From: a virus
Length of the DNA stretch: 64,000 nt
Direction: 5' to 3' (one strand)
Virus record (IMG/VR): IMGVR_UViG_3300035180_002714
Span: 62,001 to 126,000 of that record
A program made the translations under genes and the position numbers. The number at the start of each line of letters is the position of its first letter. Position 1 is the stretch's first letter. The notes below the pieces were generated by a model, which made no database searches, had not been told where the DNA came from, and was given only the letters and a program-made list of their open reading frames with translations. This document shows positions 10,378 through 53,833 of this stretch, one piece after another.

Positions 10378-10386
10378 AATGATAGG
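10378..10386 (-). promoter_or_regulatory. Late-type promoter CCTATCATT (leaderless)
   Basis: On the minus strand the motif is followed by ACAAG and then ATG of the coiled-coil protein gene: six bases from TATCAT to the start codon. Paired back-to-back with the plus-strand motif at 10425. Confidence 0.7.
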
Positions 10387-10424
10387 AGGATTTTTTTGGC
10401 CCCGACGCAAGGGGGCTGAAACCC

Positions 10425-10433
10425 CCTATAATT
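10425..10433 (+). promoter_or_regulatory. Late-type promoter CCTATAATT (leaderless)
   Basis: TATAAT at 10427-10432, then six bases, then GTG at 10439. No SD is present between them. No good -35 hexamer 17 bases upstream. Confidence 0.75.
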
Positions 10434-10438
10434 TCCCC

Positions 10439-11632
10439 GTGCGAACCGTCTCGCTTGCGGGCGTCCTCGACCAGCTCCTCTCGGCTGCCAGCCGCGAGAA
10501 GACCGCTGAGATCTCGACGAGCCCGAAGACCTTCTTCGTGCACGTGCGTGTGCCCGAGCACGTCGCTGAGAACCTTCGCGAGATCCAGAAGAAGGTCATC
10601 CCGGACGCTGCGAAGCACTCCGACATCGACCACATCACCCTGGTCTACACGAAGAAGCCGCTCGAGGACCACCCGCCCGAGAAGGTCCACGCCGCGCTCG
10701 CGGCACTTCGTCAGGTTGGCGAGAACGCCGAGCCCATCGAAGCGAAGATCCAGGGCTGGGGCTACTTCGATGGCGCGGCCTCCCAAGGCAAGCGGAACAC
10801 CGCGCTGGTCGCGTTGCTCGACGCCCCTGGCCTCGAACATCTGCACGTCGACATGGTGCGCGCCCTCAAGGTCCACGGCATCGACCCGAGCGACAAGCAC
10901 GTGTTCACGCCGCACATCACGCTCGGCTACCTCGGTGACGCTGGGCGCACCGAAGAGCCACTGCCTGTGATCAACGGACGATTCACGATCGACCGAGCGC
11001 ACGTGACGTCGCGGGACCACCACGAGATCCCGTTGACGGGCGTCGAACGTTCGATGGGACAGAAGGCCGCCGAGGCCGCCTTCCCCGGCTTCATCACCAA
11101 CATCGACGACGCCACCAACGCCAACGACAACTACCGCAAGGTCCTGCACACCGCCAAGAAAGAGCAGCTTGTCGTGATGTCCCTGCCCAAGGGCGGCGAC
11201 ATCGGCTCCGAGAAGCATCCGAACACGGACCAGTTCATCCGCGTCGAAGGCGGCCAGGGCAAGGCCGTCTTGAACGGCGTCGAGCGTCCGATGCGCGACG
11301 GCACCGCGCTCATCATCCCCGCAGGCACGCAACACAACATCGTCAATACGGGTGACGACCCGCTCAAGCTCTACACGGTCTACTCCCAGAACGAGCATCC
11401 GGACGGCATCGTCGAGAAGACCAAGGCCGACGCCGAAAAGAAAGAAGCCGCACTCGGCGTCAACGCTGCCAAGTTCGCGACCGACTTCGCGCCCAAGACC
11501 AACTTCTCGCTGGACACGAACGCGCTGCGCTCGCAACGACACGAAGGTCCTGGCAAGGGTCAGACCTCGCCGGGGATGGGCGGCGTGCCCGCACAGACCG
11601 GCGGGATGCATTCAGGTGGCGGCCTGCGATGA
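10439..11632 (+). CDS. 2H phosphoesterase-cupin fusion protein (397 aa)
   Basis: Residues about 30-200 form a 2H phosphoesterase / 2'-5' RNA ligase-like domain: two H-x-T motifs are present, HITLVY and HITLGY, at the right spacing. Residues about 230-330 form a cupin of the type KKEQLVVMSLPKGGDIG ... FIRVEGGQGKAVLNG ... IIPAGTQHNIVNTG. A Gly-rich tail follows. Possible roles are hydrolysis of a 2'-5' or cyclic nucleotide, tRNA end processing, or attachment to the virion, since fibre genes follow in the same unit. GTG start sits at the predicted transcription start. Confidence 0.85.
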   Translation: MRTVSLAGVLDQLLSAASREKTAEISTSPKTFFVHVRVPEHVAENLREIQKKVIPDAAKHSDIDHITLVYTKKPLEDHPPEKVHAALAALRQVGENAEPIEAKIQGWGYFDGAASQGKRNTALVALLDAPGLEHLHVDMVRALKVHGIDPSDKHVFTPHITLGYLGDAGRTEEPLPVINGRFTIDRAHVTSRDHHEIPLTGVERSMGQKAAEAAFPGFITNIDDATNANDNYRKVLHTAKKEQLVVMSLPKGGDIGSEKHPNTDQFIRVEGGQGKAVLNGVERPMRDGTALIIPAGTQHNIVNTGDDPLKLYTVYSQNEHPDGIVEKTKADAEKKEAALGVNAAKFATDFAPKTNFSLDTNALRSQRHEGPGKGQTSPGMGGVPAQTGGMHSGGGLR

Positions 11633-12132
11633 CCGAGCGTCCCGTCTACGTCGGCGTTGGTGAGTGCGACTGCAAACGCATCGACACCAAGCTCTATCAC
11701 GTGCCGGGCACCGAATTCGCTCGGCGGCCGGTGTGCGCCGTGTGCCTCGTCGACCACGGCTTCGAAGTGCCCACGCCGCGTACCGCCGACGACCTCGAGG
11801 AGATCGATGGGCGTCCCACGTGGAAGCCGATGCCGACACCGCCTCCGTTGAACCCCCTCGTCCATGCAGGCAAGCTGGACCTCGGGTACGGGCACATCTT
11901 CGAGGCGGTGCTTGGCAGCGACGAACAGCTCATCGGGTGGCTGCACACTCATCCCGATGCTCGAAGCCTCGAGGGGATGCTCTGCCAGTCGTTCTGTGCC
12001 GTCCGCCCGCTCAACGGCACGCCGATCCATCAGGTCGTGAGCGTCGATCCTTTGACGCTCATGCCAAGCTTGCTTTGCCGCACCTGTGGTGCACATGGTC
12101 ATGTGACCAACGGAAAATGGGAGCCCTGCTGA
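11629..12132 (+). CDS. Cys/His-rich phage protein, DUF6527-like end (167 aa)
   Basis: N-terminus has CDC and CAVC pairs. The C-terminus SLLCRTCGAHGHVTNGKW matches a common phage/bacterial tail (SPSLxCxxCGxHGxIxxGxW) that I associate with DUF6527. A metal-binding protein of unknown role. ATG overlaps the upstream stop. Confidence 0.75.
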   Translation: MTERPVYVGVGECDCKRIDTKLYHVPGTEFARRPVCAVCLVDHGFEVPTPRTADDLEEIDGRPTWKPMPTPPPLNPLVHAGKLDLGYGHIFEAVLGSDEQLIGWLHTHPDARSLEGMLCQSFCAVRPLNGTPIHQVVSVDPLTLMPSLLCRTCGAHGHVTNGKWEPC

Positions 12133-12704
12133 TGTTGCACACCAAGACTCACGTCATGATCGACGGCGCCATGCACACGGTCGCGCGCGTCGACAAGCAC
12201 GAGACCGGACCGCACCACACGCATCGCGTCCATACCGGATGCGGCCTGACCATCGATGTCGACGTCGGCGGAGAGCGTGCGCGTGCCCGTTCGCTCGAGC
12301 GTCACGGTCACGTGATGGCCGAGCCCGATCCCGCCGTGCGCGCAGCCCATGCGCCATACCACCTGAAGGCGGCAGACGAAGCGGCCTCGAAGGCCGAGCC
12401 CCTCGATGGCGGACGGTGGCACGTCGACGCCCACGCCCGTGACTGTGCCGCCTGTGTGGCGCACGAGCGTGGCGCTGCTCCAGTGACGCACCCGCTGGGG
12501 CACACCAACGCACGTACGGTCGAAGCGGACATCGAGACCAACCTCGCGTGTCCCAAGTGCGGCACGAAGATCTATCGGCGTCGTGCCAGCGAGCAGTTCG
12601 CATGCACCGGCCAAGGGCACGAGTTCACGGGCCTCGAGCTGATGGCGCACGTCAAGGACAGCTTCGATAGCCTCACGCGGCTCGTGATGCCGGAGTCCAA
12701 GTAG
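12132..12704 (+). CDS. His/Cys-rich protein with zinc ribbon (190 aa)
   Basis: Many His residues in the first half (KHETGPHHTHRVHTGCG) and a C-terminal zinc-ribbon-like CPKCGTKIYRR ... FACTGQGHEF. Start shares a base with the upstream TGA. Not recognised as a named family. Confidence 0.75.
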   Translation: MLHTKTHVMIDGAMHTVARVDKHETGPHHTHRVHTGCGLTIDVDVGGERARARSLERHGHVMAEPDPAVRAAHAPYHLKAADEAASKAEPLDGGRWHVDAHARDCAACVAHERGAAPVTHPLGHTNARTVEADIETNLACPKCGTKIYRRRASEQFACTGQGHEFTGLELMAHVKDSFDSLTRLVMPESK

Positions 12705-13733
12705 ATGTCGCTGCCCACGGTCACCCAGACATGGACGTACTCGTTCAACAACAGGTACGTGTACACAGGTTCATCGACGCTCATCACGACGATGGGCGCC
12801 TTGTTGTTTTCATGGGTCGGCGTGGGCGGCTTCCTCACGACGACGATGGGGTACACCGTCAAGGGATCGTGTGACGGTACGACCGGCGCGATGGACGGCG
12901 TCAACCGCATCACGGCTGCGAACAAGTGGGCCACGCGCGCGACGATCGCGGGCGCCGCGCAGTCGTGGATCGTCCTGACAGACGGCGCCGGGATCGACTG
13001 GTTGTTCACGTACCAGTCCGTCGCGGATGACGTCTCGCGGCTTTCGCATTCGCAAGGCGGTGTCTACATTGCGGCAGGGACTCCAGCCCAGCAACCCACC
13101 GCGACGGATGAATGCTTCGACACCCAGAGTGGGTCTTGGATCAACGGGAACATCAGCGCGGACCGCGTCTGGCATTTCTGGGGCAGCAGCGACAAGAAGA
13201 TGTTCCGCATGGCGATCTATCGTACGGGAGTCCTTGCGTCTTTCATCAAGGGCGAGAAGTTCACGGGCGCCCTGGTCGCACCTGCCACGTTCACGCTTGC
13301 TGTCGGCGGCGGAACGGTCGCGGCTCTCAAGTCATTCTACAGCGGCTCGTCTGTGTCCTCTAACAACATGGTCGGCTATGTCGCCAATGCGGCAGGCGAC
13401 GTGTGTCGGTTGCATACGTCGGTCGATGCCAACTGCAAGGCAGGCAATGGTGGGGAGCTTATCGGAGGCATGGCAGGCCTCTCCGCGCTCATGAACAACG
13501 AGCGCCCCCTTCTTCAGGGTGGTGTCGGGATCCTGTTATTCCCTACACAAACAGGTTCGATCCAAGCCAGCACGGACGGCAAGTTGGGCAGCTTGTTCGA
13601 CCAGTGGTACTCCATCTCGAACAGCGCAACCACGCCCGCCGTAGGTGACGTGTTTGGTAACCTTCAATTCTACACGGTCACGCCCGGCATCATCTTGCCG
13701 CTTGACGGCGTAACAACCCCACTGACGTCCTGA
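12705..13733 (+). CDS. Structural protein, paralogue 1 of 3 (342 aa)
   Basis: Begins directly after the previous stop. Opens with SLPTVTQTWTYSFNNRYVYT, followed by TTMGYTVKGSCDGTTGAMDG, VLTDGAGIDW, and a C-terminal GIILPLDGVTTPLTS. The beta-rich, Gly/Ser/Thr-rich sequence and position before a fibre gene suggest a virion surface or tail-tip component; this is inference. Confidence 0.8.
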   Translation: MSLPTVTQTWTYSFNNRYVYTGSSTLITTMGALLFSWVGVGGFLTTTMGYTVKGSCDGTTGAMDGVNRITAANKWATRATIAGAAQSWIVLTDGAGIDWLFTYQSVADDVSRLSHSQGGVYIAAGTPAQQPTATDECFDTQSGSWINGNISADRVWHFWGSSDKKMFRMAIYRTGVLASFIKGEKFTGALVAPATFTLAVGGGTVAALKSFYSGSSVSSNNMVGYVANAAGDVCRLHTSVDANCKAGNGGELIGGMAGLSALMNNERPLLQGGVGILLFPTQTGSIQASTDGKLGSLFDQWYSISNSATTPAVGDVFGNLQFYTVTPGIILPLDGVTTPLTS

Positions 13734-13736
13734 CAT

Positions 13737-14765
13737 ATGGCGCTACCTACCGTCACACAGACCTGGACGACGTCGTTCAACAACCGATACACGTTCGTAT
13801 CGGTTCTTGGCGCGATGCAGAGCTACATGCTCTCCCTCAAGGACTTCTTGAAGACGACCATGGGCATGACCGTCAAGGGTTCCTGCTCGGCAGGTACCGG
13901 CGCCATGGACGGTGTGGACCGTTGGACCGTCGCCACCGATGTTGCACCACGCAACAACGGCGCTGCCGGTTCACAAGCCTGGTTTGTCTTGACCGACGGC
14001 GCAGGCGTCGACTGGTGCTTCTCGTTCAACTCGGCCTCCGATGACATTTTCCGGCTGGCGCATTCGACGGGCGGCAACTACGTCGCCGCGGCTACAGCGA
14101 ACCAGCAACCCACCGCTACGGACGAGTGTTTCGATGCGGCTAGCGGTTCTTGGGTAAACAGCACGGCTAGCGCTGACCGGGTCTGGCATATGTGGGGCTC
14201 GAGCGACAAGAAGATGTGGCGCTCGACGGTCATGCGGTCCAGCGCTCTCGTCATGTATCAAGCAGGCGAGAAGTTCACGAGTGCGCTGGTTTCACCCGCA
14301 ACTTTCACACTGGGCACTGGTGGCGGAACCGTAGGTGCGGTCAAGTCATTTTATAACGGTTCGACTTTCAACTCGAATTTCAACGCCACGTATGCACCCT
14401 CCGCTCTCGGAGACCTGTGCCGCGTACATACGAACCAAGACATCAACGCAGCAGCGTCGATTGGCGGTGAGATGCCTGGTGGTGGTGTTGGGTCCTTGGC
14501 TTCGAGTGCCGTGCTTTTCAACGCAGAACTTCCACTACTTCAAGGTGCGACTGGCGAACTGATGTTCCCTGCTCAAATGGGAAGCAGGCTTGCCAATGCC
14601 GACGGTAAGCTCGGAAGCAAGATTGACAGCTGGTACGTGTTGACCAACAGCACGACGGTTCCGGGCCTTGTTGATACGTTCGGTACACTCCAATTCGTGG
14701 TCGTCGAAATTGGAGGCGCGATCATCCTACCGGGAGACGGCGCCACTACGCCGGTGTCCACATAA
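13737..14765 (+). CDS. Structural protein, paralogue 2 of 3 (342 aa)
   Basis: Collinear with paralogue 1 from end to end: ALPTVTQTWTTSFNNRYTF, TVKGSCSAGTGAMDGVDR, VLTDGAGVDWCFSFNSASDD, GAIILPGDGATTPVST. Stop overlaps the ATG of paralogue 3 by one base. Tandem duplication with strong divergence implies different receptor or assembly roles. Confidence 0.8.
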   Translation: MALPTVTQTWTTSFNNRYTFVSVLGAMQSYMLSLKDFLKTTMGMTVKGSCSAGTGAMDGVDRWTVATDVAPRNNGAAGSQAWFVLTDGAGVDWCFSFNSASDDIFRLAHSTGGNYVAAATANQQPTATDECFDAASGSWVNSTASADRVWHMWGSSDKKMWRSTVMRSSALVMYQAGEKFTSALVSPATFTLGTGGGTVGAVKSFYNGSTFNSNFNATYAPSALGDLCRVHTNQDINAAASIGGEMPGGGVGSLASSAVLFNAELPLLQGATGELMFPAQMGSRLANADGKLGSKIDSWYVLTNSTTVPGLVDTFGTLQFVVVEIGGAIILPGDGATTPVST

Positions 14766-15844
14766 TGGGTCTTCCTACCGTCACGCAGACTTGGACGATG
14801 TCGTTCAACAATCGATCGATCTTCGTGTCGATCATTCGAACGATGGGTGACCTGGTCTTCTCGCTCAAGAACTTCTTGAAAACGACGATGGGGTACACCG
14901 TCAAGGGCTCGTGCGACGGTACGACCGGCGCCATGGACGGTGTTGACCGTATCACCAGTGCGACCACATGGGCGACCCGTAACAACGGGGCTGCCGGCGC
15001 GATGTCTTGGATCGTCCTGACCGACGGCGCGGGCATCGACTGGTGCTTCTCGTTTAACTCGTCATCTGACGCAATCGTTCGGTTGGCACACTCGACAGGC
15101 GGAAACTATGTAGCCGCTGCCACTCCCAATCAACAACCGACTGCGTCCGACGAGTGTTTTGACGTTGCTTCCAGTGAATGGGTCAACGCAAATAATACTT
15201 CACGGCCTTCGGATACGGTTTGGCACATGTGGGGCTCGAGCGACAAGAAGATGTGGCGTCTTGTCACGGCCACTGGTGCCAATCTGGGTGTGACGGGACA
15301 CGCTTTTTGCGCCTATATCGCCGGTGAAAAGTTTACGAGCGCCCTTATAGCGCCCGCTTCTTTTACGCTGGGCACGGGCGGGGGCACCGTTGGCGCTATC
15401 AAAACGTACTATCAAGGCGGCAACGGAAACGGTGGTCGAATCTACTCCCTCGCAACTATTTTAAACGTGATCTATACAGGGTCCAGTGTTGCAGACCTGT
15501 GTCGTGTGCGTGCAGGGGGCGCCGATACTAACGCGCTAGCCACCATCGGCGGGGAACAGCCGGGTGGCGCGGTTGGGGCTGTCAACGGGGGCGCGCAATT
15601 CTGGAGTGCAGAAAAACCAGCCCTGCAAGGCCACAAGGGTCAACTCATCTTCCCCACAACGATGGGCGCCCGGAACGCATCCGCAGACGGTAAGCTAGGC
15701 ACGAAGATTGACCACTGGTCTTCGATTACCAACGTGGCTGGCCTTCCTGAATTCTTGGATTCATACGGCGACAAGCAGTTCTGGGCGATTGCTCCCGGCA
15801 TCATTCTTCCCGGTGATGGCGTAACGCGCTTGGTGTCCCAATGA
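14765..15844 (+). CDS. Structural protein, paralogue 3 of 3 (359 aa)
   Basis: Same architecture as its two neighbours with insertions in the middle (around residues 170-235). Opens GLPTVTQTWTMSFNNRSIFV. It is somewhat richer in A/T than paralogue 1. Stop overlaps the ATG of the fibre gene. Confidence 0.8.
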   Translation: MGLPTVTQTWTMSFNNRSIFVSIIRTMGDLVFSLKNFLKTTMGYTVKGSCDGTTGAMDGVDRITSATTWATRNNGAAGAMSWIVLTDGAGIDWCFSFNSSSDAIVRLAHSTGGNYVAAATPNQQPTASDECFDVASSEWVNANNTSRPSDTVWHMWGSSDKKMWRLVTATGANLGVTGHAFCAYIAGEKFTSALIAPASFTLGTGGGTVGAIKTYYQGGNGNGGRIYSLATILNVIYTGSSVADLCRVRAGGADTNALATIGGEQPGGAVGAVNGGAQFWSAEKPALQGHKGQLIFPTTMGARNASADGKLGTKIDHWSSITNVAGLPEFLDSYGDKQFWAIAPGIILPGDGVTRLVSQ

Positions 15845-21092: not shown

Positions 21093-21168
21093 TGGAGACC
21101 CCCACGGGGGTCGAACCCGTGACCGAAAGTTTCATCACACTTCCGCTCTACCACTGAGCTAGGGGGCC
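21093..21168 (-). tRNA. tRNA with 8-nt anticodon loop (GAU-containing), CCA encoded
   Basis: Cloverleaf is complete: 7-bp acceptor (GGCCCCC/GGGGGTC), D-arm GCTC/GAGC, T-arm ACGGG/CCCGT with TTCGACC loop, and 3' TCCA. The anticodon stem GAAGT/ACTTT encloses GTGATGAA, eight bases instead of seven, at 21131-21138. With U33 in its usual place the anticodon would be GAU (Ile) or a four-base GAUG. The variable loop is normal length, so the extra base is really in the loop. Confidence 0.75.
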
Positions 21169-21173
21169 AGTCG

Positions 21174-21246
21174 CGGAAACCACGGGGCTCGAACCCGTCA
21201 TCCCAAGACCATCAATCTTGGTGCTGCACCCGGCAGCTCGGAATCC
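21174..21246 (-). tRNA. Degenerate tRNA-like gene with GAU in the loop
   Basis: T-arm (ACGGG/CCCGT, TTCGAGC loop) and D-arm are good. The acceptor GGATTCC/GGTTTCC has two T-T mismatches. The anticodon arm CCAAGA/TCTTGG has six pairs round TTGATGG, giving GAU with G rather than A at position 37. No encoded CCA. Possibly a tRNA-Ile variant or a decaying gene. Confidence 0.55.
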
Positions 21247-21323
21247 AGTAGTCCACGTTGCGAACGTCACGCACAACGCGAACAACGCGTTTCGTAATAC
21301 TATCAGCACGTGCAGAAAGATGG

Positions 21324-21394
21324 GCGGGAAGATGGGGTCGAACCACCGACCTTGATTCTTGCGAACCAAAGCTCTACCACTGAGCTATTCCCGC
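21324..21394 (-). tRNA. tRNA-like gene with tRNA-Gly body and abnormal anticodon loop
   Basis: Acceptor GCGGGAA/TTCCCGC and the next bases look like bacterial tRNA-Gly; CCCA follows on the 3' side. D- and T-arms pair fully. The anticodon stem TTGGT/ATCAA encloses TCGCAAGA, eight bases at 21357-21364, with no U33 before an NCC anticodon. The decoding identity cannot be assigned (CGC or GCA are possible). Confidence 0.65.
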
Positions 21395-21396
21395 AG

Positions 21397-21468
21397 AGAC
21401 CTCGCGTGGAGTTGAACCACGTGTCGCCGGGCTAGAAGTCCGGTGCTCTATCGTTGAGCTACGAGGCC
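21397..21468 (-). tRNA. tRNA-Arg (anticodon UCU)
   Basis: Acceptor GGCCTCG/CGAGGTC, D-arm GCTC/GAGC, T-arm CGTGG/CCACG. Seven-base anticodon loop CTTCTAG gives UCU, reading AGA/AGG, rare codons in a GC-rich genome. The closing pair of the anticodon stem (31-39) is A-C instead of a pair. No encoded CCA. Confidence 0.85.
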
Positions 21469-21469
21469 A

Positions 21470-21549
21470 TGGCGGAGCTGCCCGGACGCGACCCGGGATC
21501 TCTCGTGGATCCGAAGACCCACGAGCTGCGCGCTTTACGCCACAGCTCC
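21470..21549 (-). tRNA. tRNA-like RNA with a 10-bp UUCG hairpin instead of an anticodon arm
   Basis: Perfect 7-bp acceptor (GGAGCTG/CAGCTCC), 3' end G-CCA encoded, perfect 5-bp T-stem (CCCGG/CCGGG) and a small D-arm. Where the anticodon arm should be, CTCGTGGGTC and GATCCACGAG pair over ten base pairs with a TTCG tetraloop, leaving no anticodon loop. The T-loop (GTCGCGT) lacks the usual T54 and A58. It lies one base from tRNA-Arg in the same orientation. Confidence 0.6.
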
Positions 21550-21913: not shown

Positions 21914-22126
21914 ATGCGCAAGCTCACCCGGAAGCAGGTCTTGTCGATCCCACAACTCCTCCACATCGACGGCGGGGGCGGCAAGCATCGAGAGTCCCTG
22001 CGTGGCAAGGCCGCGAGTTTCGCCTTGTGGTTGAAGAACAACGGCTACCCGAGTGGGTACCGCGTGCTTTGCATGAACTGCAACCTCGCCATCGGCATCA
22101 GCGGGACCTGTCCTCACCGGCGGTAG
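21914..22126 (+). CDS. Small Cys/His protein, HNH-like end (70 aa)
   Basis: C-terminal [20 protein letters not shown] matches the end of many small phage proteins related to HNH/zinc-finger endonucleases (LCxNCNxxxGxxGxCPH). The N-terminal part is basic. It is too short for a complete HNH nuclease. It lies between an intact and a broken pth2 copy, so it may be a mobile insertion. Confidence 0.65.
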
Positions 22127-29353: not shown

Positions 29354-29362
29354 CCTATAATT
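29354..29362 (+). promoter_or_regulatory. Late-type promoter CCTATAATT
   Basis: TATAAT at 29356-29361, 25 bases before an ATG that has its own GAGAGG ribosome-binding site. This copy therefore produces a short leader. Confidence 0.75.
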
Positions 29363-30613: not shown

Positions 30614-31075
30614 GTGCCGTTCACGCACTACCCCAAGAACTCCTTCAACCTGATCTTCGCGTGGGTGCAGCCTCCGCCGCCCGATCAGACGCCCTTTTTT
30701 GGACAGCCTCGGTTCTCGACGCTGAACCGTTTCGAGAAGCCGCTTGAGCCCGGCACCGTCGTTTCAGCGTTTCACGATGCTCAGCCGTTCACACGGTTCT
30801 ACGGCTCGGTCGCGTCGGATCAACCGCTCGAGATGACGCTGTCGTTCTCGAACGAAGAGACCGACGCGCAGGGTTTCTACGTCACCGACGACAACATCTC
30901 GAGCTTGAACTTCGACGCGGAGGCCCTCAAGCAGATGTACGAACCGGCCAAGCAGGGTCCCACCGGCAAGTACTTCTGCACCATCTTCGGGCGCTACTTT
31001 CGTGTCCAAGTGAAGAACGTCGGTTCGGAGCCCACCGAATTCTTGCGTGTCTTCGTGCGCGGGTCTGTGTTCTAG
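30614..31075 (+). CDS. Structural protein (153 aa)
   Basis: Strand-rich sequence with FYGSVASDQPLEMTLSFSNE and RYFRVQVKNVGSEPTEFLRV, as in phage beta-sandwich head or fibre-tip proteins. GTG start with GGAGG upstream. No closer identification. Confidence 0.7.
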   Translation: MPFTHYPKNSFNLIFAWVQPPPPDQTPFFGQPRFSTLNRFEKPLEPGTVVSAFHDAQPFTRFYGSVASDQPLEMTLSFSNEETDAQGFYVTDDNISSLNFDAEALKQMYEPAKQGPTGKYFCTIFGRYFRVQVKNVGSEPTEFLRVFVRGSVF

Positions 31076-31089
31076 TTTATCTAGTAAAC

Positions 31090-31314
31090 ATGGCCAAGCA
31101 TTCGATCCGGTCCCCTGTCGGGGGCAGCGTGTGGACACACTCGGTGGGCGTAGGTCAGCGTGTTGTCGCGGGCACCACGTTGCTCATCTGCGAGGTCATG
31201 AAGACGGAGTTTCCAGTGGAGACTCCTGTCGATGGCGAGGTTACGTGGCTGGCCGCGTGTGGGCAGACGCTCGAGGCGGACGACCTCGTGGCGATCGTCG
31301 ACGACAAGCCTTAG
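31090..31314 (+). CDS. Stand-alone biotinyl/lipoyl-attachment domain (74 aa)
   Basis: The whole protein is one biotinyl-type barrel: SPVGGSVWTHSVGVGQRVVA, then CEVMKTEFPVETPVDGEV with the acceptor Lys inside E-V-M-K-T (classic E-A-M-K-M), then ACGQTLEADDLVAIV. It has no carboxylase partner nearby. It could be biotinylated by host BirA and act as a decoy, a virion label or a carrier. TATCTA lies six bases before the ATG, again the leaderless geometry. Confidence 0.85.
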   Translation: MAKHSIRSPVGGSVWTHSVGVGQRVVAGTTLLICEVMKTEFPVETPVDGEVTWLAACGQTLEADDLVAIVDDKP

Positions 31315-34405: not shown

Positions 34406-34771
34406 TCATCCCACCGCGATGAAGAGGACCGCGGCTGCGCCCGTGGTCGTGATCAACGCCGCGGTCGGGAACGCCTGCGCGGTGTTGATCCAGATGAAGT
34501 AGCCTCCTGGCGCGAGGGGCCACGCGTCGAGGCCGCCGTTGAACTTGATCGTGCAGCCACCGGCGGTGCACTTCACGATGAGGCCTTTGGCGCCCGCGAG
34601 CGCGAGCGTGCCGAAGTTGACGACGTCGTCGGTGACGGCGCCTGAGTAGGACCGCTGGAAGTCCACACGCGACGTGAAACCGAGCGCGACCGCCAGGTTG
34701 ATAGGTGCAGTGGCACCCCCGTCCTCGAGAGGGATCGCGGCCGCACCAGCGACGGTCAGGTTCTGCGCCAT
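34406..34771 (-). CDS. Small beta-rich virion protein (121 aa)
   Basis: AQNLTVAGAAAIPLEDGGAT ... IKFNGGLDAWPLAPGGYFIW looks like a head-decoration or fibre protein fold. Heads a unit with a leaderless promoter: TATAAT ends six bases before the ATG and no SD is present. Confidence 0.7.
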   Translation of the reverse strand: MAQNLTVAGAAAIPLEDGGATAPINLAVALGFTSRVDFQRSYSGAVTDDVVNFGTLALAGAKGLIVKCTAGGCTIKFNGGLDAWPLAPGGYFIWINTAQAFPTAALITTTGAAAVLFIAVG

Positions 34772-34776
34772 GGCCT

Positions 34777-34785
34777 AATTATAGG
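34777..34785 (-). promoter_or_regulatory. Late-type promoter CCTATAATT (leaderless)
   Basis: Minus strand: CCTATAATTAGGCC then ATG at 34771. Six bases separate the hexamer from the start codon. Confidence 0.8.
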
Positions 34786-36038: not shown

Positions 36039-36323
36039 TCAGACCGCGACTGTGGTTGCAGCGCCCGGAGCAGCCGGAGCGGCCGGAGCGGCCGGAGCGG
36101 CCGGAGCAGCGTTGTCGTTTGCTGCCGCGTTGATCTTGGCGGCTTCTTTGCCATGATCGGCGATTCCCTGACCCACGATGTAGGCGCCCGCGAGAGCGAT
36201 GATCTGGGTCAACATGTCGGGGTCGAGGTTGAGCCCCAGCTTGCTGGCGATCGCGACGATGATCGCAGCCAGTAGGACGAGGAACTTCTTCGACGCGAGC
36301 AGATCTTTGAGTGCAGTCACCAT
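36039..36323 (-). CDS. Holin-like membrane protein (94 aa)
   Basis: SKKFLVLLAAIIVAIASKLG followed by LDPDMLTQIIALAGAYIVGQ and GIADHGKEA resembles phage holins with two membrane segments. The C-terminus is an Ala-Pro repeat (APAAPAAPAAP). AAGGAG-like SD upstream is weak; the ATG overlaps the previous gene's stop. Confidence 0.7.
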   Translation of the reverse strand: MVTALKDLLASKKFLVLLAAIIVAIASKLGLNLDPDMLTQIIALAGAYIVGQGIADHGKEAAKINAAANDNAAPAAPAAPAAPAAPGAATTVAV

Positions 36324-36586
36324 CAGATATCTCCCTTGTTGCGTGGCACCGAGACCGAGCCCTTCTCGGCTGGACGGTCAGCGTGTGTGTGAACGTATCC
36401 TGCCTTGTTCTTCAGTGAGGTGCGCGACATAGGCACGATCGTCGTGCACGAGTGGCCACCCAGCAGCTCGTCCGCGCTGGTGACAGGTTCTCCGCACGAG
36501 GGGCATTTTGCCAAATCCTCGTCGGTCATGTGCATGTACTCGAAGCGATTCCCGCAGTCGCACGAGTACTCCCGGATTTTGGGCAC
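36323..36586 (-). CDS. FmdB-like zinc-ribbon protein (87 aa)
   Basis: Opens PKIREYSCDCGNRFEYMHM, then CPSCGEPV: a four-Cys zinc ribbon of the FmdB/regulatory type found in bacteria and phages. GTG start lies five bases after TATCAT and has no SD. Confidence 0.75.
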   Translation of the reverse strand: MPKIREYSCDCGNRFEYMHMTDEDLAKCPSCGEPVTSADELLGGHSCTTIVPMSRTSLKNKAGYVHTHADRPAEKGSVSVPRNKGDI

Positions 36587-36590: not shown

Positions 36591-36599
36591 AATGATAGG
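36591..36599 (-). promoter_or_regulatory. Late-type promoter CCTATCATT (leaderless)
   Basis: Minus strand CCTATCATTCCGC then GTG: five bases from the hexamer to the start codon. It lies in the 42-base gap before the 36629-38371 gene end. Confidence 0.7.
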
Positions 36600-36628
36600 C
36601 GTCGCTTACCCGATAAACAAGTCGGAGG

Positions 36629-38528: not shown

Positions 38529-39947
38529 TTACTCGGTGCGTACCTTGGTGGAGAGAGTTCCTGGGTATGCCGCCGCGATCGCAGACAGCTGGGCGCCAAG
38601 AGCGGCAAGCCCGCCTGCAAGCTGCGTCACTGCGGTGAGGGTGAGCGCGGTTGGTGACCCGATAAACGCGTCCGGGGCGATCGTCACGAGGGCGGTCGCT
38701 GCAATCGTTTCTGCAGCAGCGCCGGCGGCTCCGAGAGGCGACATCACCGTACTTCCGTACGCGGTGCCCTTGATCACTGGCTCGACCGCGTTGGCGCCTA
38801 GCTTCACTGCGGTGCCGCCGTCGACCGTGTAGATGCTGCCTGCCTTGGACGTAGAACTTCCGCTAACGTCGACAGTGTCGTCTCCGCCGACTTGAACGCC
38901 ACGGTTGCCTGCGATCGCTTGCGTTTCAGCACCGCTCACGCCGACATCGCGGTCGCCCCCGACGAACGCGGTCGAATTGCGCCCCACCGATCGCGTCTCG
39001 TCGGTGCTGACCGTGGTGGTTGCTGATGCCCCGATCGAGGACGACATGCTCCCGCCCACGACGTGCGTCTCGTCTCCGCCGACGGTGGCGGTCCTCGACC
39101 CTGCAACATCGTGCCGCATCTCGGACGTTCCCTTGTCGCCAGACGACAGGTCAACGCCACCATCCCCATAGATCTGCACGCGCCCATCCGAGCCGGCATG
39201 GAGCCGGAACAAGAGCTTGCCCTCGGGCTCGAGGATTCGAAAATCCAACACATCACCTGTCGCGCCGAGGTCCAAGCGGATCGTCCAGTGCTGTTCGTCC
39301 ATCCCGGACTGGGTCGCCTGGTTGGAACCTGCGCGAAGCACGAACGACGTCCGCCCTTGGTCGTTCTCGATGCGCATCTGCCCGAAGTCTGAGAATTGCT
39401 GGATGCGGCGTGCGATCGTTCGCAGCGTTCCAGAAGGTCCAATCGACTGCACGTGAGCGCTCGGGCTACCCATCAAGGTAACCCCGCCCTCGAGCACGGC
39501 GACGTGGTTCCCCAGGGTGCCCACCTGGGCCCAATCACCGGCTCCCATGTCGGTGGGCGCGTTGGGCGGCTTGAAGTTGTTGGTGCCCTGTGTCAGCTGC
39601 GTGGGATCGGCATCACCCACGCCTTCGACGCCCGTCAACGTCGGTGCCTGAACCGACGGTTGCGACGGACTTGGAAAGTCCATGCAGCCAACGATCGCGG
39701 GAATGCCCAAGTCGTAGGAGATCACGACGGTCGTGCCCGTCGGGATGTGGTCGAAGCCCGTGGCAGTCGACTTGATCTGAGGGACGTCTTGAAGCGGGCG
39801 TCCGCTGTGCGTCCGCACGATCGACGTGTGCGTTGCGGAGTTGTATGCGACGACGACGCCCAGCTCCCAATTCCCCTTACCCGTGCGCCCGAGACCTGCG
39901 GCGCCGAGATTGGCAGCACCGCGTCGTGCGCGTAGAGGGTCCTTCAC
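38529..39947 (-). CDS. Baseplate central spike protein (472 aa)
   Basis: Residues 30-105 look like the OB-fold of gpV/gp5/VgrG-type spikes (GVVVAYNSATHTSIVRTHSG ... GTTVVISYDLGIPAIVGC). Residues about 230-400 are a beta-helix with short repeats (GSRTATVGGDETHVVGG, TDETRSVGRNSTAFVGGDRD). Such proteins form the cell-puncturing tip of contractile tails. Fits with the tail sheath encoded in the same module. Confidence 0.8.
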   Translation of the reverse strand: MKDPLRARRGAANLGAAGLGRTGKGNWELGVVVAYNSATHTSIVRTHSGRPLQDVPQIKSTATGFDHIPTGTTVVISYDLGIPAIVGCMDFPSPSQPSVQAPTLTGVEGVGDADPTQLTQGTNNFKPPNAPTDMGAGDWAQVGTLGNHVAVLEGGVTLMGSPSAHVQSIGPSGTLRTIARRIQQFSDFGQMRIENDQGRTSFVLRAGSNQATQSGMDEQHWTIRLDLGATGDVLDFRILEPEGKLLFRLHAGSDGRVQIYGDGGVDLSSGDKGTSEMRHDVAGSRTATVGGDETHVVGGSMSSSIGASATTTVSTDETRSVGRNSTAFVGGDRDVGVSGAETQAIAGNRGVQVGGDDTVDVSGSSTSKAGSIYTVDGGTAVKLGANAVEPVIKGTAYGSTVMSPLGAAGAAAETIAATALVTIAPDAFIGSPTALTLTAVTQLAGGLAALGAQLSAIAAAYPGTLSTKVRTE

Positions 39948-43487: not shown

Positions 43488-45893
43488 TTACGCCACCAGG
43501 TGGAGTTCGATGACGTTGAGCGGCTTGGGCAAGCCGATCGCGCAGTACATCAGCACGCGGTCCGCCGACGTCGGCGAGACCTCGAGCGCCGTGATGGCGA
43601 ACGAGGTCAGCGGCGCACCGATCTTCGCTGCCGTGCGCAGCAACAGGAGCTGCGAGCCGGTGATCAGCGCACCGTGCAGCTGCGTCAGCGTGTCGAGCGT
43701 GACGTTGTACTGACCGAGGAAGTCCTCGAGGATGTCGACGAAGAACAACGACACGAAGTCGAAGTTCTTGACGACGGAGAACTCGCCCGACTCGAGCGTC
43801 GCCGGGTCCGTGGTCAGCTGGTGGATGGTGTACGGCAGCGACGTGGTCGTCTGCTGCGCGAACACGTACCACCCACCGTTCGAGATGTCGGTGAGCTGGC
43901 TGTCCGTGAAGTACGTGTTCGAGTCGTAGATCTGGGACACGCCCGCGATGCCGAGGTTGGTGAACCCCTGCTGCGACGGCAGACCCGCGGTCATGCCGCC
44001 GACCGCGCATGCCAGGTAGTAGCCCGGCTGCTTGGTGCCGCCCGTGACACCTGCGACGTCGCACTTGTCCGGCCACACGAGGACCGTGCGCTTGGAGTTG
44101 AATGACTGCGCGACCGCCACCAGCTCGGTGACTTGCTGGCTCTTCGAGAGCGTACGAACGATCTCGAAGTTGACCGTTGTCAGGCCGACGAGGGCGCCGC
44201 CGATCCGCTTCACGCCGTGTGGCAGCTCGTTCTGGACCGTCGAGCTGTCCTGCCCGTTGTTGACGATCTGCAGACGTTGATCGCTGATGACGTTGTTGAC
44301 GACGAGCGTCGTGAAGACGGTGGCCGAGGTGATCGCTGCGTTCGGGTCGACCGGGATCTTGATGAGGTCACCCGCAGCGACGCCGCTCGCGATGAACGTG
44401 CCGCTCGGGTCCTTGAGGATCAGGAACAGGTCATCGCCGGCCGACGTGATGACACCAATGAGCGCGGCCGAAGGCACGCGAACCGTGGTCCCGTCCGCAT
44501 AGACGATCGCGCAGGTGATGTTGCACGTGCCCGCGCCCGCGAACGGTGTCGCGACGTCGACCTCGATCGTGGTCGCGCTCTCGACGGACGCGATCGGATA
44601 GTCGCCGAGTGCGACATCGCCGAGGACAGACGAGATTGTCACGCGGAGGATGTCGCCCGGGATGACGCCGCCGCCCGTGGTGAGCAGGGTCGCCACGCCC
44701 GTCAGCACGATCTTCGTGATCGCACTGGGCGCGCTTCCGCTGAGCTGCAGTGGTGCGCCCGTGGCCGACGCACCCACGATCGTCTTGGTCACCGGCAGCG
44801 TGCCGTTGCCGATGACGACGCGGAAGCGCTGCGGACGACCGTGAACGTTGTCGGGCAGCGCGAGTCCGACGCAGTCCGAGTTCCACATCGCGAAGATCGA
44901 CACGTCGGTCGTCATCGGGATGATGGCGTAGACATCGGGGCGTGCCGAGATGTGGTCTCGCACGGTGACGTGTCCCGCGAGGTCGTCGGACAGCACGCCG
45001 ATGAACTGAACGACCGAGGTCGTGTTCTCGAGCGCGACGAACGCACCTGCCGCGAGCGGGTTGCGCACGTCGAGACGGCCGATCTTCGACAGGATGTCGG
45101 CCTCGGACTCGATGGTGTCGAGGTCGACGATGTCTTGACGAAGCGAGCGGTACGCCTCGTACACGACGGCGTACGACACGGGCTTGCTACCCTGCCCGGT
45201 CACTGCCAGCGTCACGCTGCCGGCGATCTTCACGGCGTTGTTGGTGTGCGAGACGAACGACGAAGCGATCTGGACGTCGTTGATCTGCCGCTCGATGTAC
45301 CAGTGCTGGTTGGCTGCCGGCACGAACGTTCCGCCGGTGACGTCTGCTGTGAGCAGCAGCTGGGTGTCCGAGACAACCGAGAGCACCGTGCGCGCGATGA
45401 CGACCGTGCCCGCATCGACGATGACGAGACGGTCGCCCGGCAACACCTTGCCCGGCCCTGCCGTGGCGAACGTGGTCGGCCCTGGGAGGGTCTCGGCGGT
45501 GTCGAACTGGTTGGGCGTCAGGACCGTGGTCGTGCCCTTGATGCCACCACCCGCGTCGACGCCCTTGCCCGCGATACGGACGCGCGCTTGGTCGAAGTAG
45601 ATCGCGACGCTCGAGCCATCCAGGATGGCCCCGACAGCGTTGTTCGGCGGCTCGGCAACCGTGATCACGGCAGGGCCCGTCGGCAGCGTCCCGTCAGGGG
45701 ATGCTTCCAACGTGCCATACGCCGGCGTGACCTGGATGTCGGTCTTGTCGGCGTAGTCCGTGGTGCCGGGCTTGAAGTAGTCCTGGATGTGGAACGCGGG
45801 CCCCACGACAAGGCAGTTCAGGTCTGGAGACGTCGGCGTGACCGTCGGCGTGGCCAGGTCCTGGTAAACGAGTACGACTGGTCGAATGGCCAT
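43488..45893 (-). CDS. Contractile tail sheath protein (801 aa)
   Basis: Long sheath with variable insertions. The conserved C-terminal part shows LVWPDKCDVAGVTGG, YYLACAVGGMTAGLPSQQGF and a final domain ending NVIELHLVA, as in phage sheath proteins. This defines the virus as a myovirus type. CGGAGCACTGACCC precedes the ATG; a late promoter lies 33 bases upstream. Confidence 0.88.
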   Translation of the reverse strand: MAIRPVVLVYQDLATPTVTPTSPDLNCLVVGPAFHIQDYFKPGTTDYADKTDIQVTPAYGTLEASPDGTLPTGPAVITVAEPPNNAVGAILDGSSVAIYFDQARVRIAGKGVDAGGGIKGTTTVLTPNQFDTAETLPGPTTFATAGPGKVLPGDRLVIVDAGTVVIARTVLSVVSDTQLLLTADVTGGTFVPAANQHWYIERQINDVQIASSFVSHTNNAVKIAGSVTLAVTGQGSKPVSYAVVYEAYRSLRQDIVDLDTIESEADILSKIGRLDVRNPLAAGAFVALENTTSVVQFIGVLSDDLAGHVTVRDHISARPDVYAIIPMTTDVSIFAMWNSDCVGLALPDNVHGRPQRFRVVIGNGTLPVTKTIVGASATGAPLQLSGSAPSAITKIVLTGVATLLTTGGGVIPGDILRVTISSVLGDVALGDYPIASVESATTIEVDVATPFAGAGTCNITCAIVYADGTTVRVPSAALIGVITSAGDDLFLILKDPSGTFIASGVAAGDLIKIPVDPNAAITSATVFTTLVVNNVISDQRLQIVNNGQDSSTVQNELPHGVKRIGGALVGLTTVNFEIVRTLSKSQQVTELVAVAQSFNSKRTVLVWPDKCDVAGVTGGTKQPGYYLACAVGGMTAGLPSQQGFTNLGIAGVSQIYDSNTYFTDSQLTDISNGGWYVFAQQTTTSLPYTIHQLTTDPATLESGEFSVVKNFDFVSLFFVDILEDFLGQYNVTLDTLTQLHGALITGSQLLLLRTAAKIGAPLTSFAITALEVSPTSADRVLMYCAIGLPKPLNVIELHLVA

Positions 45894-45925: not shown

Positions 45926-45934
45926 AATTATAGG
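45926..45934 (-). promoter_or_regulatory. Late-type promoter CCTATAATT for sheath gene
   Basis: TATAAT on the minus strand, 33 bases before the sheath ATG, leaving room for a leader with CGGAG. It lies in the 71-base gap between tail genes. Confidence 0.8.
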
Positions 45935-48757: not shown

Positions 48758-48937
48758 CTACTTCTGGATCGCGCGGAACAGGTCTGCGAGCGGGTTCGCG
48801 GCGGCCGTCTTGGGTGCCTCGATCAGGCCGAGCGCCTCGGCATCGCGACGGACTTCCTCCGCGCTCTTGTAGCCGACAGCTTCGAGAGCCTTCTGGATGC
48901 CGTACTCGTGCGCGGTCTTCAGGTGGTTGTTCGACAT
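48758..48937 (-). CDS. Small protein with variant N-terminal motif (59 aa)
   Basis: MSNNHLKTAHEYGIQKALEA, then GYKSAEEVRRDAEALGLIEA and KTAAANPLADLF. TATAAT ends six bases before the ATG, without SD. KTAAANP also occurs in the 57706-58986 protein. Confidence 0.7.
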   Translation of the reverse strand: MSNNHLKTAHEYGIQKALEAVGYKSAEEVRRDAEALGLIEAPKTAAANPLADLFRAIQK

Positions 48938-48942: not shown

Positions 48943-48951
48943 AATTATAGG
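48943..48951 (-). promoter_or_regulatory. Late-type promoter CCTATAATT (leaderless)
   Basis: Minus strand CCTATAATTCAACC then ATG at 48937. Six-base spacing. Confidence 0.8.
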
Positions 48952-49728: not shown

Positions 49729-50234
49729 CAGCGCACGTACGTCTTCTCGAGGCTGGCCACGACCTGCGCGATTTGTGCGCCCGCAGTCGCCGTCGTCACG
49801 ATCTGGATTGCTTGGTACGGCAGGAGGATCGTCTTGAAGCGCGCTTCGTCGAGCGCGATGAAGCGCACGCCCGTCGATTGCTCGATGATGATCGACTCGC
49901 CCGCCAGGATAGCGGGCTGGTCATCGTTGATTTTCGTCGGATCGAGGTTCACGAGCGACACGGTGATGTCCCCCGCAGCACCCAGGTCCACATGGATCTG
50001 GCTGCAGACCAGGGACTCGACGTTGTTCCAGAAGAACAGCCCCCCGCCGTCTGCTGCGAGCGACGCGTACTTGTAGCAGCTGTTGCCGGGCTGCACGGGG
50101 CTGTCCGCGCGCACAGCACCTGCTTGCGGCAGTACCCCCGTGAACTTCTTCCCGGTGGCGACCTGTTGTTGGATCGCCGTCGAGATGGACTGCGCGGTGC
50201 GCGACGTGACAACGGTGATCGAAGGGGAAGCCAT
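49728..50234 (-). CDS. Structural protein (168 aa)
   Basis: Beta-rich with SLAADGGGLFFWNNVESLVC and ITVSLVNLDPTKI. Probably a head or neck component. A TACAAT hexamer is 11 bases upstream of the ATG. Confidence 0.7.
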   Translation of the reverse strand: MASPSITVVTSRTAQSISTAIQQQVATGKKFTGVLPQAGAVRADSPVQPGNSCYKYASLAADGGGLFFWNNVESLVCSQIHVDLGAAGDITVSLVNLDPTKINDDQPAILAGESIIIEQSTGVRFIALDEARFKTILLPYQAIQIVTTATAGAQIAQVVASLEKTYVR

Positions 50235-50783: not shown

Positions 50784-51722
50784 TCAGGCGAACGGCAGGT
50801 CGATGCGCTGGGTCGCCAGCGTGTTGCCGATGCCGATGCCCGGCGCTGCGTAGCTCCAGAACTCGATGATGTCGGCTTCCTGCTTGATGTACAGGGTCGC
50901 ATCCTGCAGGAGGAAGAACACGCCGAGGTAGTTCTGCGGCGCGAACACGTAGACCGAGCGGCGAGTCGAACCGGCGACGTCGTCGACGATCTCGCGCTTG
51001 ATGGTCGAAACCACGGGGATGCCCCACAGCTTCTCCTCGGCCTCGATGCCCATGTCGTAGTGCCGCGACGCCACGTCGTTGCCGACGGAGGTCGCCGGCA
51101 GGTCGAGGGCCTCGTAGTACGTCGACTTCGACATCAGGAGCTTGCCGATCGGCTGGCGCCGGTTGACGAGGCCCTGGAAGCCGAGCTTGAACGCGCTCGA
51201 GTTGAACGCGCCCGCGAGGGTGCGTTGCGTCGCGAGGTTCAGCGCGATGATCGCGTTGATGGTGTCCAGGAACTTCTGGTCTTCCTGGTCCGCCATGTCC
51301 TTGACGGAGTTGTCCGACAGGATCTTGCGGATGTCGTTCTGATACGTCATCAGCTCGAACTTGTTCTTGGTGTACCGCTGCGACTCGGTCTTGCCGAAGT
51401 AGACCGAGAAGCGCTTGCCACGGAACCACGTACGCTGCGCCGTGCCGTTGAACGGCACGAACGTGGCGACGGAGTCGGGCTCCTTCTCGACGATCTTCTT
51501 GGGCTGGTCGGTGTTCTCGTCACGGTCGATCTCGTCGTCCGCCAGCATGACGGGCTCGATGATCTCGCGTGCGAAGGACTCCTGACGGAGCTTCTGGCGA
51601 ATGAACGCCGTACCCTCGGCCGCTGCCTCCTTCGTCCGCCCGTCTTCGACCTTGCGGACGAAGTTCGAGTTGATGAACTGATTAGAAACCTGCTGGGTCT
51701 GTGTCTTGTACGCTGCCGACAT
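50784..51722 (-). CDS. Major capsid protein, HK97-type (312 aa)
   Basis: KFELMTYQNDIRKILSDNSV, then LLMSKSTYYEALDL and a C-terminal region SVYVFAPQNYLGVFFLLQDA followed by TLYIKQEADIIEFWSYAAPG fit capsid proteins of large phages. The prohead protease lies in the same module. A strong terminator follows. SD GGAGAACC upstream of the ATG. Confidence 0.85.
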   Translation of the reverse strand: MSAAYKTQTQQVSNQFINSNFVRKVEDGRTKEAAAEGTAFIRQKLRQESFAREIIEPVMLADDEIDRDENTDQPKKIVEKEPDSVATFVPFNGTAQRTWFRGKRFSVYFGKTESQRYTKNKFELMTYQNDIRKILSDNSVKDMADQEDQKFLDTINAIIALNLATQRTLAGAFNSSAFKLGFQGLVNRRQPIGKLLMSKSTYYEALDLPATSVGNDVASRHYDMGIEAEEKLWGIPVVSTIKREIVDDVAGSTRRSVYVFAPQNYLGVFFLLQDATLYIKQEADIIEFWSYAAPGIGIGNTLATQRIDLPFA

Positions 51723-51749
51723 TGTGTGGTTCTCCTTGACCCAGGTGGA

Positions 51750-52214: not shown

Positions 52215-52237
52215 CTGAGTCTGCCTCCGGGAATGCG

Positions 52238-52594: not shown

Positions 52595-52742
52595 GAGCGC
52601 CTCCGAGCTTGGAACGCAGCATGCCGAAACCCGTCGCTGCGACGAGCACGCTGGCCGCCTTGATCTTGCGGTCTTCGGCTTGCTTCAAGCCCTGCGCACG
52701 CAGGTCACTTGCGATCGTACGAAGCATCTCGGATTCCTTCAC
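52587..52742 (-). CDS. Small protein (51 aa)
   Basis: GTG start overlapping the upstream stop. KESEMLRTIASDLRAQGLKQ then a hydrophobic stretch (AASVLVAATGFGMLRSKLGG). Function unknown. Confidence 0.6.
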   Translation of the reverse strand: MKESEMLRTIASDLRAQGLKQAEDRKIKAASVLVAATGFGMLRSKLGGARG

Positions 52743-52954
52743 AGGGCCCCCATGAGATCATCGTACGACACGTCGCTCGATGCGGTACGAACTTCGTCGG
52801 CGAGGGCGCGCAGACCGCGCGCCGTCTCGGTCTTGGGTTGTGCCGCTGCGACTTTGATCGCATGCGTCTCGGCCGTCTTGCGATGGGACGCGGCGTTCGC
52901 TTCCGCGAGCACCTCGTCCACGACGAGCGATAGGTGTTGATGCGTGCGGTTCAC
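52739..52954 (-). CDS. Small helical protein (71 aa)
   Basis: GTG start. All-helical, Ala/Glu/Lys-rich (LSLVVDEVLAEANAASHRKT). Ends YDDLMGAL. In the string of small virion-module genes. Confidence 0.65.
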   Translation of the reverse strand: MNRTHQHLSLVVDEVLAEANAASHRKTAETHAIKVAAAQPKTETARGLRALADEVRTASSDVSYDDLMGAL

Positions 52955-53223
52955 GGCGCGCCTCGATGCATCACGGCGTGCAGCGCGTCGATGATCTGCG
53001 GCCCGGCCATGCCAGTCGCAATCCCTGCGCCGAAGCCTGTGTTCTTGGCGCGTTCGCGCGCGGCTTCGTCATGGGCATGCATGAGGCCGGCGCCAAGGGC
53101 ACCGCCGCCAAGCAACGCACCACCACCAAGCAACGCCTTGACGAGCGCGGGATCCGCGGCCGTCTTCGCTTCCGCTGCCTGCTTGAGGCGAGCGAGCGCG
53201 TCGATGTGAACCACGTCAGCCAT
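52951..53223 (-). CDS. Small Gly-rich protein (90 aa)
   Basis: Short helical start, then GGGALLGGGALGAGLMHAHD, a glycine-zipper stretch. ATG precedes coupled genes. Likely packaged, membrane-active. Confidence 0.65.
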   Translation of the reverse strand: MADVVHIDALARLKQAAEAKTAADPALVKALLGGGALLGGGALGAGLMHAHDEAARERAKNTGFGAGIATGMAGPQIIDALHAVMHRGAP

Positions 53224-53226
53224 GGC

Positions 53227-53799
53227 TCAGCGAGCGCCCTCGATCAGCTGAAGAGTGTCACGGAAGCCGGCGACGAAGGACTCGCTCGCCACCTTGTGGA
53301 TCTGCTCGACCGTGTCGTTCCAGCCCTTGGCGTACGCCGACTCGGCCAGCTTTTCGAGCTGACCCATCGTGGACGTGTAGCCGAGGGTGGCCGCTTCCTT
53401 CACGAGGTCCGGGTTCTCGGCAGCGAACTTCTCGAAGTCCGATGACCCTCCTGCGACTGCGGCGGTCTTCGCGAGGGGCGCGGCCTTGTCGGCCGCCTCC
53501 TTGTACTGAGACGCGCGAGCCATGAAGCCGTCGCACATGGCGGCGCCATAGAGCTGCGCCTCCTTGGCGAGGGCCTCGTGCTCGGCCTTGCTCAGGTCAG
53601 CCGCGATCTTGGTGAGGTCTTCGATCGGCGAAGTCTGGCTCGCGGTCTTGGACTGCACCGCCGGAGCGGTCGCTTCCTTGAGCGCTTGCTTCAGACGCTC
53701 GCCGGCGTCTGTGGTTGGAGACGCAGATCCGGTGGGCGCAGACGCGCTCGCGGTCTTCTCGCCGCCTTTGATCATCCCGAGTGCGTTTGAGAGCTTCAT
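53227..53799 (-). CDS. Helical virion or scaffold protein (190 aa)
   Basis: Ala/Lys/Glu-rich helices throughout (LTKIAADLSKAEHEALAKEA ... SAYAKGWNDTVEQIHKVASE). Near the prohead protease and capsid genes, so a scaffold or internal head protein is plausible. CGGAGA SD and a late promoter 26 bases upstream. Confidence 0.65.
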   Translation of the reverse strand: MKLSNALGMIKGGEKTASASAPTGSASPTTDAGERLKQALKEATAPAVQSKTASQTSPIEDLTKIAADLSKAEHEALAKEAQLYGAAMCDGFMARASQYKEAADKAAPLAKTAAVAGGSSDFEKFAAENPDLVKEAATLGYTSTMGQLEKLAESAYAKGWNDTVEQIHKVASESFVAGFRDTLQLIEGAR

Positions 53800-53824
53800 G
53801 GATTGCCGTCTCCGTTACGGTGAA

Positions 53825-53833
53825 AATGATAGT
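53825..53833 (-). promoter_or_regulatory. Late-type promoter (ACTATCATT)
   Basis: TATCAT on the minus strand 26 bases before the 53799 ATG, in the 57-base gap after the protease gene. Confidence 0.65.

Follow-up and report, generated by a model that had tools for sequence, protein, structure and literature searches.

The 64,000-base window analysed here (bases 62001-126000 of the 158,425-base phage record IMGVR_UViG_3300035180_002714) carries a capsid operon, a tail-sheath-like gene and other genes, among which the word CTATMATT stands before gene starts on both strands. Eight copies were found against 0.34 expected, none of 100 shuffles gave eight, and no copy overlaps a called gene although the coding share of the window is 92%; each is intergenic and oriented toward the next gene. 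In the whole record the word occurs 12 times and its reversed form once. CTATAATT is exceptional by itself, with five window copies against a mean of 0.10 over 280 anagrams. A first-pass annotation of this stretch had listed sites at 10378(-), 10425(+), 29354(+), 34777(-), 36591(-), 45926(-), 48943(-) and 53825(-); all are present on these strands, and the motif frequency that it had set as a check came out in their favour. We consider it fairly probable, from sequence comparison, that the sites are late promoters of a phage-encoded, sigma-dependent RNA polymerase, and that a subset of them gives rise to leaderless messenger RNAs (mRNAs).

The structure of the sites was examined in a set of 90 non-redundant CTATMATT sites, mostly from related environmental phages. 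These relatives were obtained with the major capsid protein of the window as query, which returned 117 IMG/VR stretches, of which 80 were kept. A site was dropped when it differed from a retained one at no more than 12 of 68 positions, and sites with less than 50 bases upstream or less than 70 downstream to the end of their stretch were left out, together with stretches L009, L010, L011 and L023, which either nearly duplicate the window phage or are fragmentary. Records G001, G002 and G004, whose capsid protein is identical to that of the window, were not sampled for sites, and for G011, G013, G015, G016, G017, G018 and G020 only sites within the capsid loci were read. A TTG lies exactly 17 bases upstream of TATMAT in 32 of the 90 sites, compared with at most three at each other spacing from 12 to 21, and CTATMATT is preceded by C in 73. 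The description of these sites as -10-only, with no common -35 element, is thus not upheld. The class would instead be a sigma-70-type promoter of the phage's own with the consensus TTGTnn-N17-CCTATMATT, lying mostly ahead of structural genes.

Nine of the 90 sites had no assignable downstream gene and were omitted from the leader counts, leaving 81. Measured from CTATMATT to the start codon, the distance x peaks at x=5 (17 sites), equivalent to a gap of six bases from TATMAT, and a second group lies at 22 to 34. No Shine-Dalgarno (SD) match of even three bases precedes the start in 27 of the 31 sites with x of at most 8. A match of at least four is present in 45 of the 50 sites with larger x, a count that is inflated, because the assignment of starts in the leadered class favoured codons with an SD; the fairer contrast is the comparison of window genes given below. 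Where the start codon is more distant, the base at x=5 is a purine in 40 of 50 sites, which fits a common transcription start at this position, about seven bases after TATMAT.

In the window, where gene starts were chosen by scoring of open reading frames (ORFs), TATMAT and the start codon lie exactly six bases apart at 10378, 10425, 34777 and 48943, and five apart at 36591, as first annotated. None of these five leaderless-type genes has an SD match of at least four bases, compared with 57 of 98 other called genes and 25% of shuffled upstream sequences (the gene cut at the left end and ORF 9933(+) were excluded from this comparison and 9926-10372(-) was added). The other three sites (29355, 45933 and 53832) leave 24, 32 and 25 bases between CTATMATT and the start, each with an SD-like site. 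The claim that the motif places the start codon at +1, made in the first-pass annotation likewise for a subset, therefore applies to five of the eight window sites and fails at three. At these five we infer that the mRNA would lack a leader, because the start codon sits at the predicted transcription start; mRNAs from the others would carry leaders with an SD. At the four record sites outside the window, the start codon follows CTATMATT after 8 bases at 12991(+), 7 at 57398(-), 16 at 50117(-) and 34 at 127253(-).

Leaderless geometry is mostly limited to close relatives, and within these it is conserved. Thirteen counterparts of the five leaderless genes, judged by eye from N-terminal sequence or place in a divergent pair, were found in G003, G005 and G006; x lies between 4 and 6 in 12 of them (one of these with a further ATG at x=2) and is 7 in the other. 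The distant orthologues of the gene starting at 48937 in L043 and L072, which lack the motif, have a GGAG site before the ATG. Geometry, missing SD and conservation together support the earlier proposal that a subset may be translated leaderless. More generally, a TANNNT at gap six precedes 8 of 103 window starts, against about 0.5 per gap; four of these are CTATMATT sites and four are others, the fifth leaderless site having gap five. The first-pass annotation also named TATCTA at 31090 and TATAGC at 9291; the gap is right at both, but neither word fits TANNNT and both were excluded from the class. Just before the 31090 start, the stretch 31067-31090(+) contains a palindromic GTTTATCTAGTAAAC-like repeat (GTTTA...TAAAC), which is possibly an operator rather than a -10 element.

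Table 1. Predicted promoters and associated genes in the window.
Feature	Position	Strand	Description
CTATCATT promoter	10378-10385	-	TATCAT, six bases, then ATG of 9926-10372(-); leaderless geometry
Gene behind 10378 promoter	9926-10372	-	Weak Rz-like spanin match (phrog_89, E 0.0018)
CTATAATT promoter	10426-10433	+	TATAAT, six bases, then GTG at 10439; leaderless geometry
Gene behind 10426 promoter	10439-11632	+	2'-5' RNA ligase-like domain and cupin domain (Pfam)
CTATAATT promoter	29355-29362	+	ATG at 29387 after 24 bases; leader with SD-like GAGG
CTATAATT promoter	34777-34784	-	Six bases from TATMAT to start of 34406-34771(-); leaderless geometry
CTATCATT promoter	36591-36598	-	TATCAT, five bases, then GTG of 36323-36586(-)
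-35 element TTGTTT	36615-36620	-	17 bases from TATCAT of 36591 site
CTATAATT promoter	45926-45933	-	32 bases, then ATG of 43488-45893(-); SD-like GGAG
Tail-sheath-like gene	43488-45893	-	Behind 45926 promoter
CTATAATT promoter	48943-48950	-	Six bases from TATMAT to start of 48758-48937(-); leaderless geometry
CTATCATT promoter	53825-53832	-	25 bases, then ATG of 53227-53799(-); SD-like GGAG
-35 element TTGTTT	53849-53854	-	17 bases from TATCAT of 53825 site
Major capsid protein gene	50784-51722	-	41% identical to annotated Salmonella phage Arash major capsid protein; query for relatives

The term late genes, as first applied to the genes in Table 1, suits the sheath gene, the capsid operon and the possible spanin gene, but for several of the controlled genes no function is known, and one encodes a small helix-turn-helix regulator. 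The gene 53227-53799(-) is the first ahead of the capsid gene, and the product of 36323-36586(-) is zinc-ribbon-like, below the Pfam cut-off. The ligase-like/cupin fusion 10439-11632(+) also has a weak match to anti-CBASS Acb1 (E 0.0006, below cut-off), and the back-to-back promoter pair 10378(-)/10426(+) in front of it is found in G005 and G006 as well.

Related phages show the same preference for the late strand. In the loci of the 80 relatives, 62 copies of CTATMATT are on the late-gene strand and three on the opposite one; for the reversed word the counts are 8 and 17. When whole records are counted, a clear excess is seen in the branch of the window, where G001 to G006 each hold 11 to 14 copies and at most one reversed copy; G007 to G010, G012 and G019 show a smaller one. 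The gene preceding the capsid operon has CTATCATT at most 70 bases from its start in 14 of 19 rows (L009 to L034) and CTATGATT or CTACTATT in the other five, with related words in more distant rows. The -10 word differs by branch, being TATMAT in that of the window, TATAAT, TATCAT or TATTAT in G007 to G010, G012 and G019, TAGACT in G011, G014 and G017, and TAAGAT in G015, G016, G018 and G020; region 2.4 of the sigma factor varies alongside it. In the four branch sets, a TTG 17 bases before C-TANNNT occurs 11, 19, 15 and 26 times on the late strand, compared with 0, 4, 0 and 4 times on the other. The word CTAGACTT is partly coding, with several copies inside the capsid gene, so only copies with TTG at 17 bases were used.

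The same record encodes, at 146 kb on the minus strand, a sigma-70-family factor that could recognise these promoters. Its single Sigma70_r2 match lies at 146109-146297(-), and the protein scores 36.1 bits for region 2 (PF04542, cut-off 24) and 32.6 bits for region 4 (PF04545, cut-off 24.1). A match to PHROG 351 ('RNA polymerase sigma factor') was obtained, and similarity to RpoS, RpoH and SigA, in the case of RpoS and RpoH below every cut-off. A region-2 match was obtained in 17 of 20 relatives, above cut-off in 14. Sigma genes of several relatives (L105, L106 and L107; L096, L099, L102 and L103) contain inserted cysteine-rich, zinc-ribbon-like stretches, which lie inside region 2 in G007 to G009 and between regions 1.2 and 2 in G011, G013, G014 and G017.

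The record of the window additionally encodes a bacterial-type RNA polymerase in two pieces: beta fused to the N-terminal part of beta' (beta'N) at 132-138 kb and, at 128-130 kb, the C-terminal part of beta' (beta'C) on its own. In all 12 records searched, Rpb2_6 and Rpb1_2 share one open frame and Rpb1_5 lies in a separate frame, and the alpha-subunit domain PF01193 was found in none of the 12, while it was detected in 13 of 14 control genomes. The fusion frame in the window's record comprises 1815 codons including an intein-like insert, and its catalytic NADYDGD and beta GDKLCNRFGNKG motifs are intact; the beta' catalytic motif reads N-x-DYDGD in seven of seven group sequences and DYDGD in Salmonella phage Arash (OQ632216), the nearest named relative by capsid. 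Intein-like inserts, judged by eye, were seen in the polymerase beta part (L177:6269-11713(-)) and in the large protein encoded ahead of the capsid operon (53857-56694(-) in the window). Sigma factor and polymerase occur together in 11 of the 12 records, G012 being without a sigma match, and the records of this group measure 158-198 kb, under the jumbo limit. In the phage collection 57 records match the fusion, with at least 80% coverage in four (Arash and Vibrio phages D69, D148 and D181). The 24 kb holding the polymerase and sigma genes contain a single CTATMATT copy, at 127260(-), which fits expression of these genes from another promoter class.

In E. coli, the beta' coiled coil is bound by region 2.2 of sigma-70, and the substitutions R275Q, E295K and A302D impair holoenzyme formation (PMC8321222; the corresponding sigma-32 interface is listed in PMC10216364; statements on papers given by PMC number refer to the portions of those texts used here). 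Position 407, a Glu in E. coli RpoD, is Ala in all 18 group sigmas read (three of them copies, from G001, G002 and G004) and also in Arash. On the polymerase side, R275 and E295 are replaced in all eight aligned phage sequences (seven group members and Arash) and A302 is kept in six. Six other sigmas of the phage collection have Glu (four), Asp (one) or Met (one) at position 407. This paired loss at the interface suggests that phage sigma and phage core are partners. We infer that the promoters would be recognised by the sigma of the same record, working most likely with the phage polymerase; the earlier proposal of a phage sigma or a modified RNA polymerase is thereby made likely and extended, as the record encodes both a sigma-70-family protein and an RNA polymerase. 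An RpoH-like extended -10 contact was also considered: T128 and K130 of sigma-32 contact the spacer (PMC10216364), and near that column the group sigmas carry R or K, or A in the case of the TAAGAT group, but the alignment is gapped there and was not relied on.

Several observations weigh against a phage promoter class read by a phage holoenzyme. CTATCATT alone is not rare, as some of 420 anagrams reach eight copies compared with its three in the window, so these sites rest on position and conservation. The reversed word still amounts to 25 copies against 65 of CTATMATT over the 80 loci, and AT-richer distant records show no excess over it (G011, 1 versus 6; G020, 5 versus 8). A full TTG is found in only two of the eight window sites (36591 and 53825, both TTGTTT), which made the -35 element hard to see on first reading, and in 5 of 31 leaderless-type sites versus 25 of 50 leadered ones, the G of TTG being kept in 20 of the 31. 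No region-2 match was obtained in G010, G012 and G019 of the 20 relatives searched. TAGACT and TAAGAT each rest on essentially one orthologous promoter, and the co-variation of region 2.4 and -10 word is a correlation, with hosts that may differ between branches too. According to PMC8321222, changes at the sigma positions, E407A alone among them, only weaken core binding, and E407A occurs together with changed R275 in reduced endosymbionts, so that paired 407/275 changes can also arise by erosion.

The sites could also be ordinary sigma-A promoters of a host that itself has many leaderless genes. TATAAT with TTG at 17 bases also suits a host housekeeping sigma, roughly a third of Deinococcus radiodurans genes have TANNNT beside the ORF as a rule (PMC12340547), and the four window genes with a gap-six TANNNT outside the CTATMATT context, at 21914(+), 23131(+), 25911(+) and 39947(-) (gene 38529-39947), may represent a second, host-type leaderless set. 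This explanation is nevertheless very improbable in view of the conserved CC before and T after the hexamer (the first C in 73 of 90 sites) and of the drift of the same orthologous promoter from TATAAT to TAGACT and TAAGAT in distant groups. Moreover, a general gap-six habit was not seen in 100 called starts of L020, L029, L034, L177 and L178, where TANNNT occurs three times at this gap, each time as CTATAATT. A search for the host by a capsid-alignment scan of genome contigs gave 40 pattern matches with no relative among them.

Phage sigma factors of the 7-11/phiEco32 type are known to redirect the host core polymerase. A similar action of the present sigma, with the phage polymerase serving otherwise, for instance in early transcription from the virion, appears unlikely but deserves some weight, as the sigmas of 7-11 and phiEco32 are treated in this way in PMC4331800 and the Arash polymerase gene adjoins the portal gene, within the structural genes. 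The paired loss at sigma 407 and beta' 275/295 counts against binding to a host core, and Glu 407 is kept in four of the six other phage-collection sigmas, although three of these four look like host RpoD. Alternatively, the promoter class could be real and its transcripts not leaderless, with transcription starting further upstream or translation at a later start codon. The starts were picked by ORF scoring rather than from peptides, and further in-frame starts lie downstream at several leaderless-type sites; we regard this explanation as improbable, since the gap is conserved in 12 of the 13 counterparts, a purine is found at the predicted +1 in long-leader sites too, and the motif-less orthologues in L043 and L072 carry an SD at the corresponding ATG.

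Late promoters of T4 have a conserved -10 element before late genes and depend on the phage sigma-like factor gp55. Leaderless late mRNAs are known from Thermus phage YS40. The parallel with T4 drawn in the first-pass annotation finds no support, although no search was aimed at a gp55 homologue: the class described here has a -35 element at a fixed 17 bases, and the sigma has region 4 besides region 2. The phage additionally has its own polymerase, and a subset of the sites has leaderless geometry. Low-copy conserved promoters of a phage sigma were likewise found from sequence in 7-11 and phiEco32, phages which, in contrast to the present group, are not described as encoding a multisubunit polymerase in the text of PMC4331800 used here, which does not mention leaderless geometry either. 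The AR9/phiKZ polymerases are, as here, phage relatives of beta and beta' with a core lacking alpha (PMC7598289, PMC7824862). There, beta and beta' are divided among four or five proteins, whereas here beta is fused to beta'N with beta'C separate, and the AR9 promoter factor gp226 is presented in these sources as having no sigma similarity, whereas a sigma-70 protein occurs in 11 of 12 records here. Leaderless genes of Deinococcus-Thermus similarly start a few bases after a -10 hexamer, but their promoters are cellular and housekeeping and, as given in PMC12340547, without the CC..T context of the phage motif.

Arash is annotated with sigma and RNA polymerase genes, and its polymerase consists, like that of the group, of a beta-beta'N fusion (1525 amino acids) and a beta'C (606 amino acids); Vibrio phages D69, D148 and D181 have a related capsid and polymerase fusion. 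Two Arash sites have TTGTTTAC...CCCTAAAATA at 17 bases, as in the group, with the -10 word TAAAAT, and both have leaders. CCTAAAAT is not enriched in the whole Arash genome (4 copies against 5 of the reversed control). An enrichment of CTAAAAT ahead of genes, apparent in two stretches, was discarded with the -35 element at only two of seven forward copies, and just the two sites are claimed. Pfam region 4 was not found in the Arash sigma, unlike in that of the window's record.

Elsewhere in the window, three consecutive genes at 12705-15844(+) encode similar proteins of 342-359 amino acids, all starting M-x-LPTVTQTWT, and form a tandem triplication. Five predicted transfer RNAs are clustered at 21093-21549(-), three of which are supported by Rfam; three anticodons of the cluster were left unassigned by ARAGORN, two of these being read as four bases.

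Reviews of jumbo phages (PMC7598289, PMC7824862) separate polymerase-encoding from sigma-encoding phages. The present group appears to carry both, and its promoters can be identified by sequence. Beyond the promoters themselves, there is in our view about an even chance that these uncultured large phages encode a complete, alpha-less holoenzyme of bacterial type, co-adapted at the contact between sigma2 and clamp and using a branch-specific promoter code, and that one branch became leaderless through promoters moved onto start codons. If true, this would provide a compact polymerase together with its matching sigma and promoters, as well as a cultured distant relative, and the co-variation of -10 word and region 2.4 between sister groups would make sigma specificity testable. 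The leaderless branch would represent a promoter merging into the start codon, in genes whose orthologues elsewhere retain a Shine-Dalgarno sequence.

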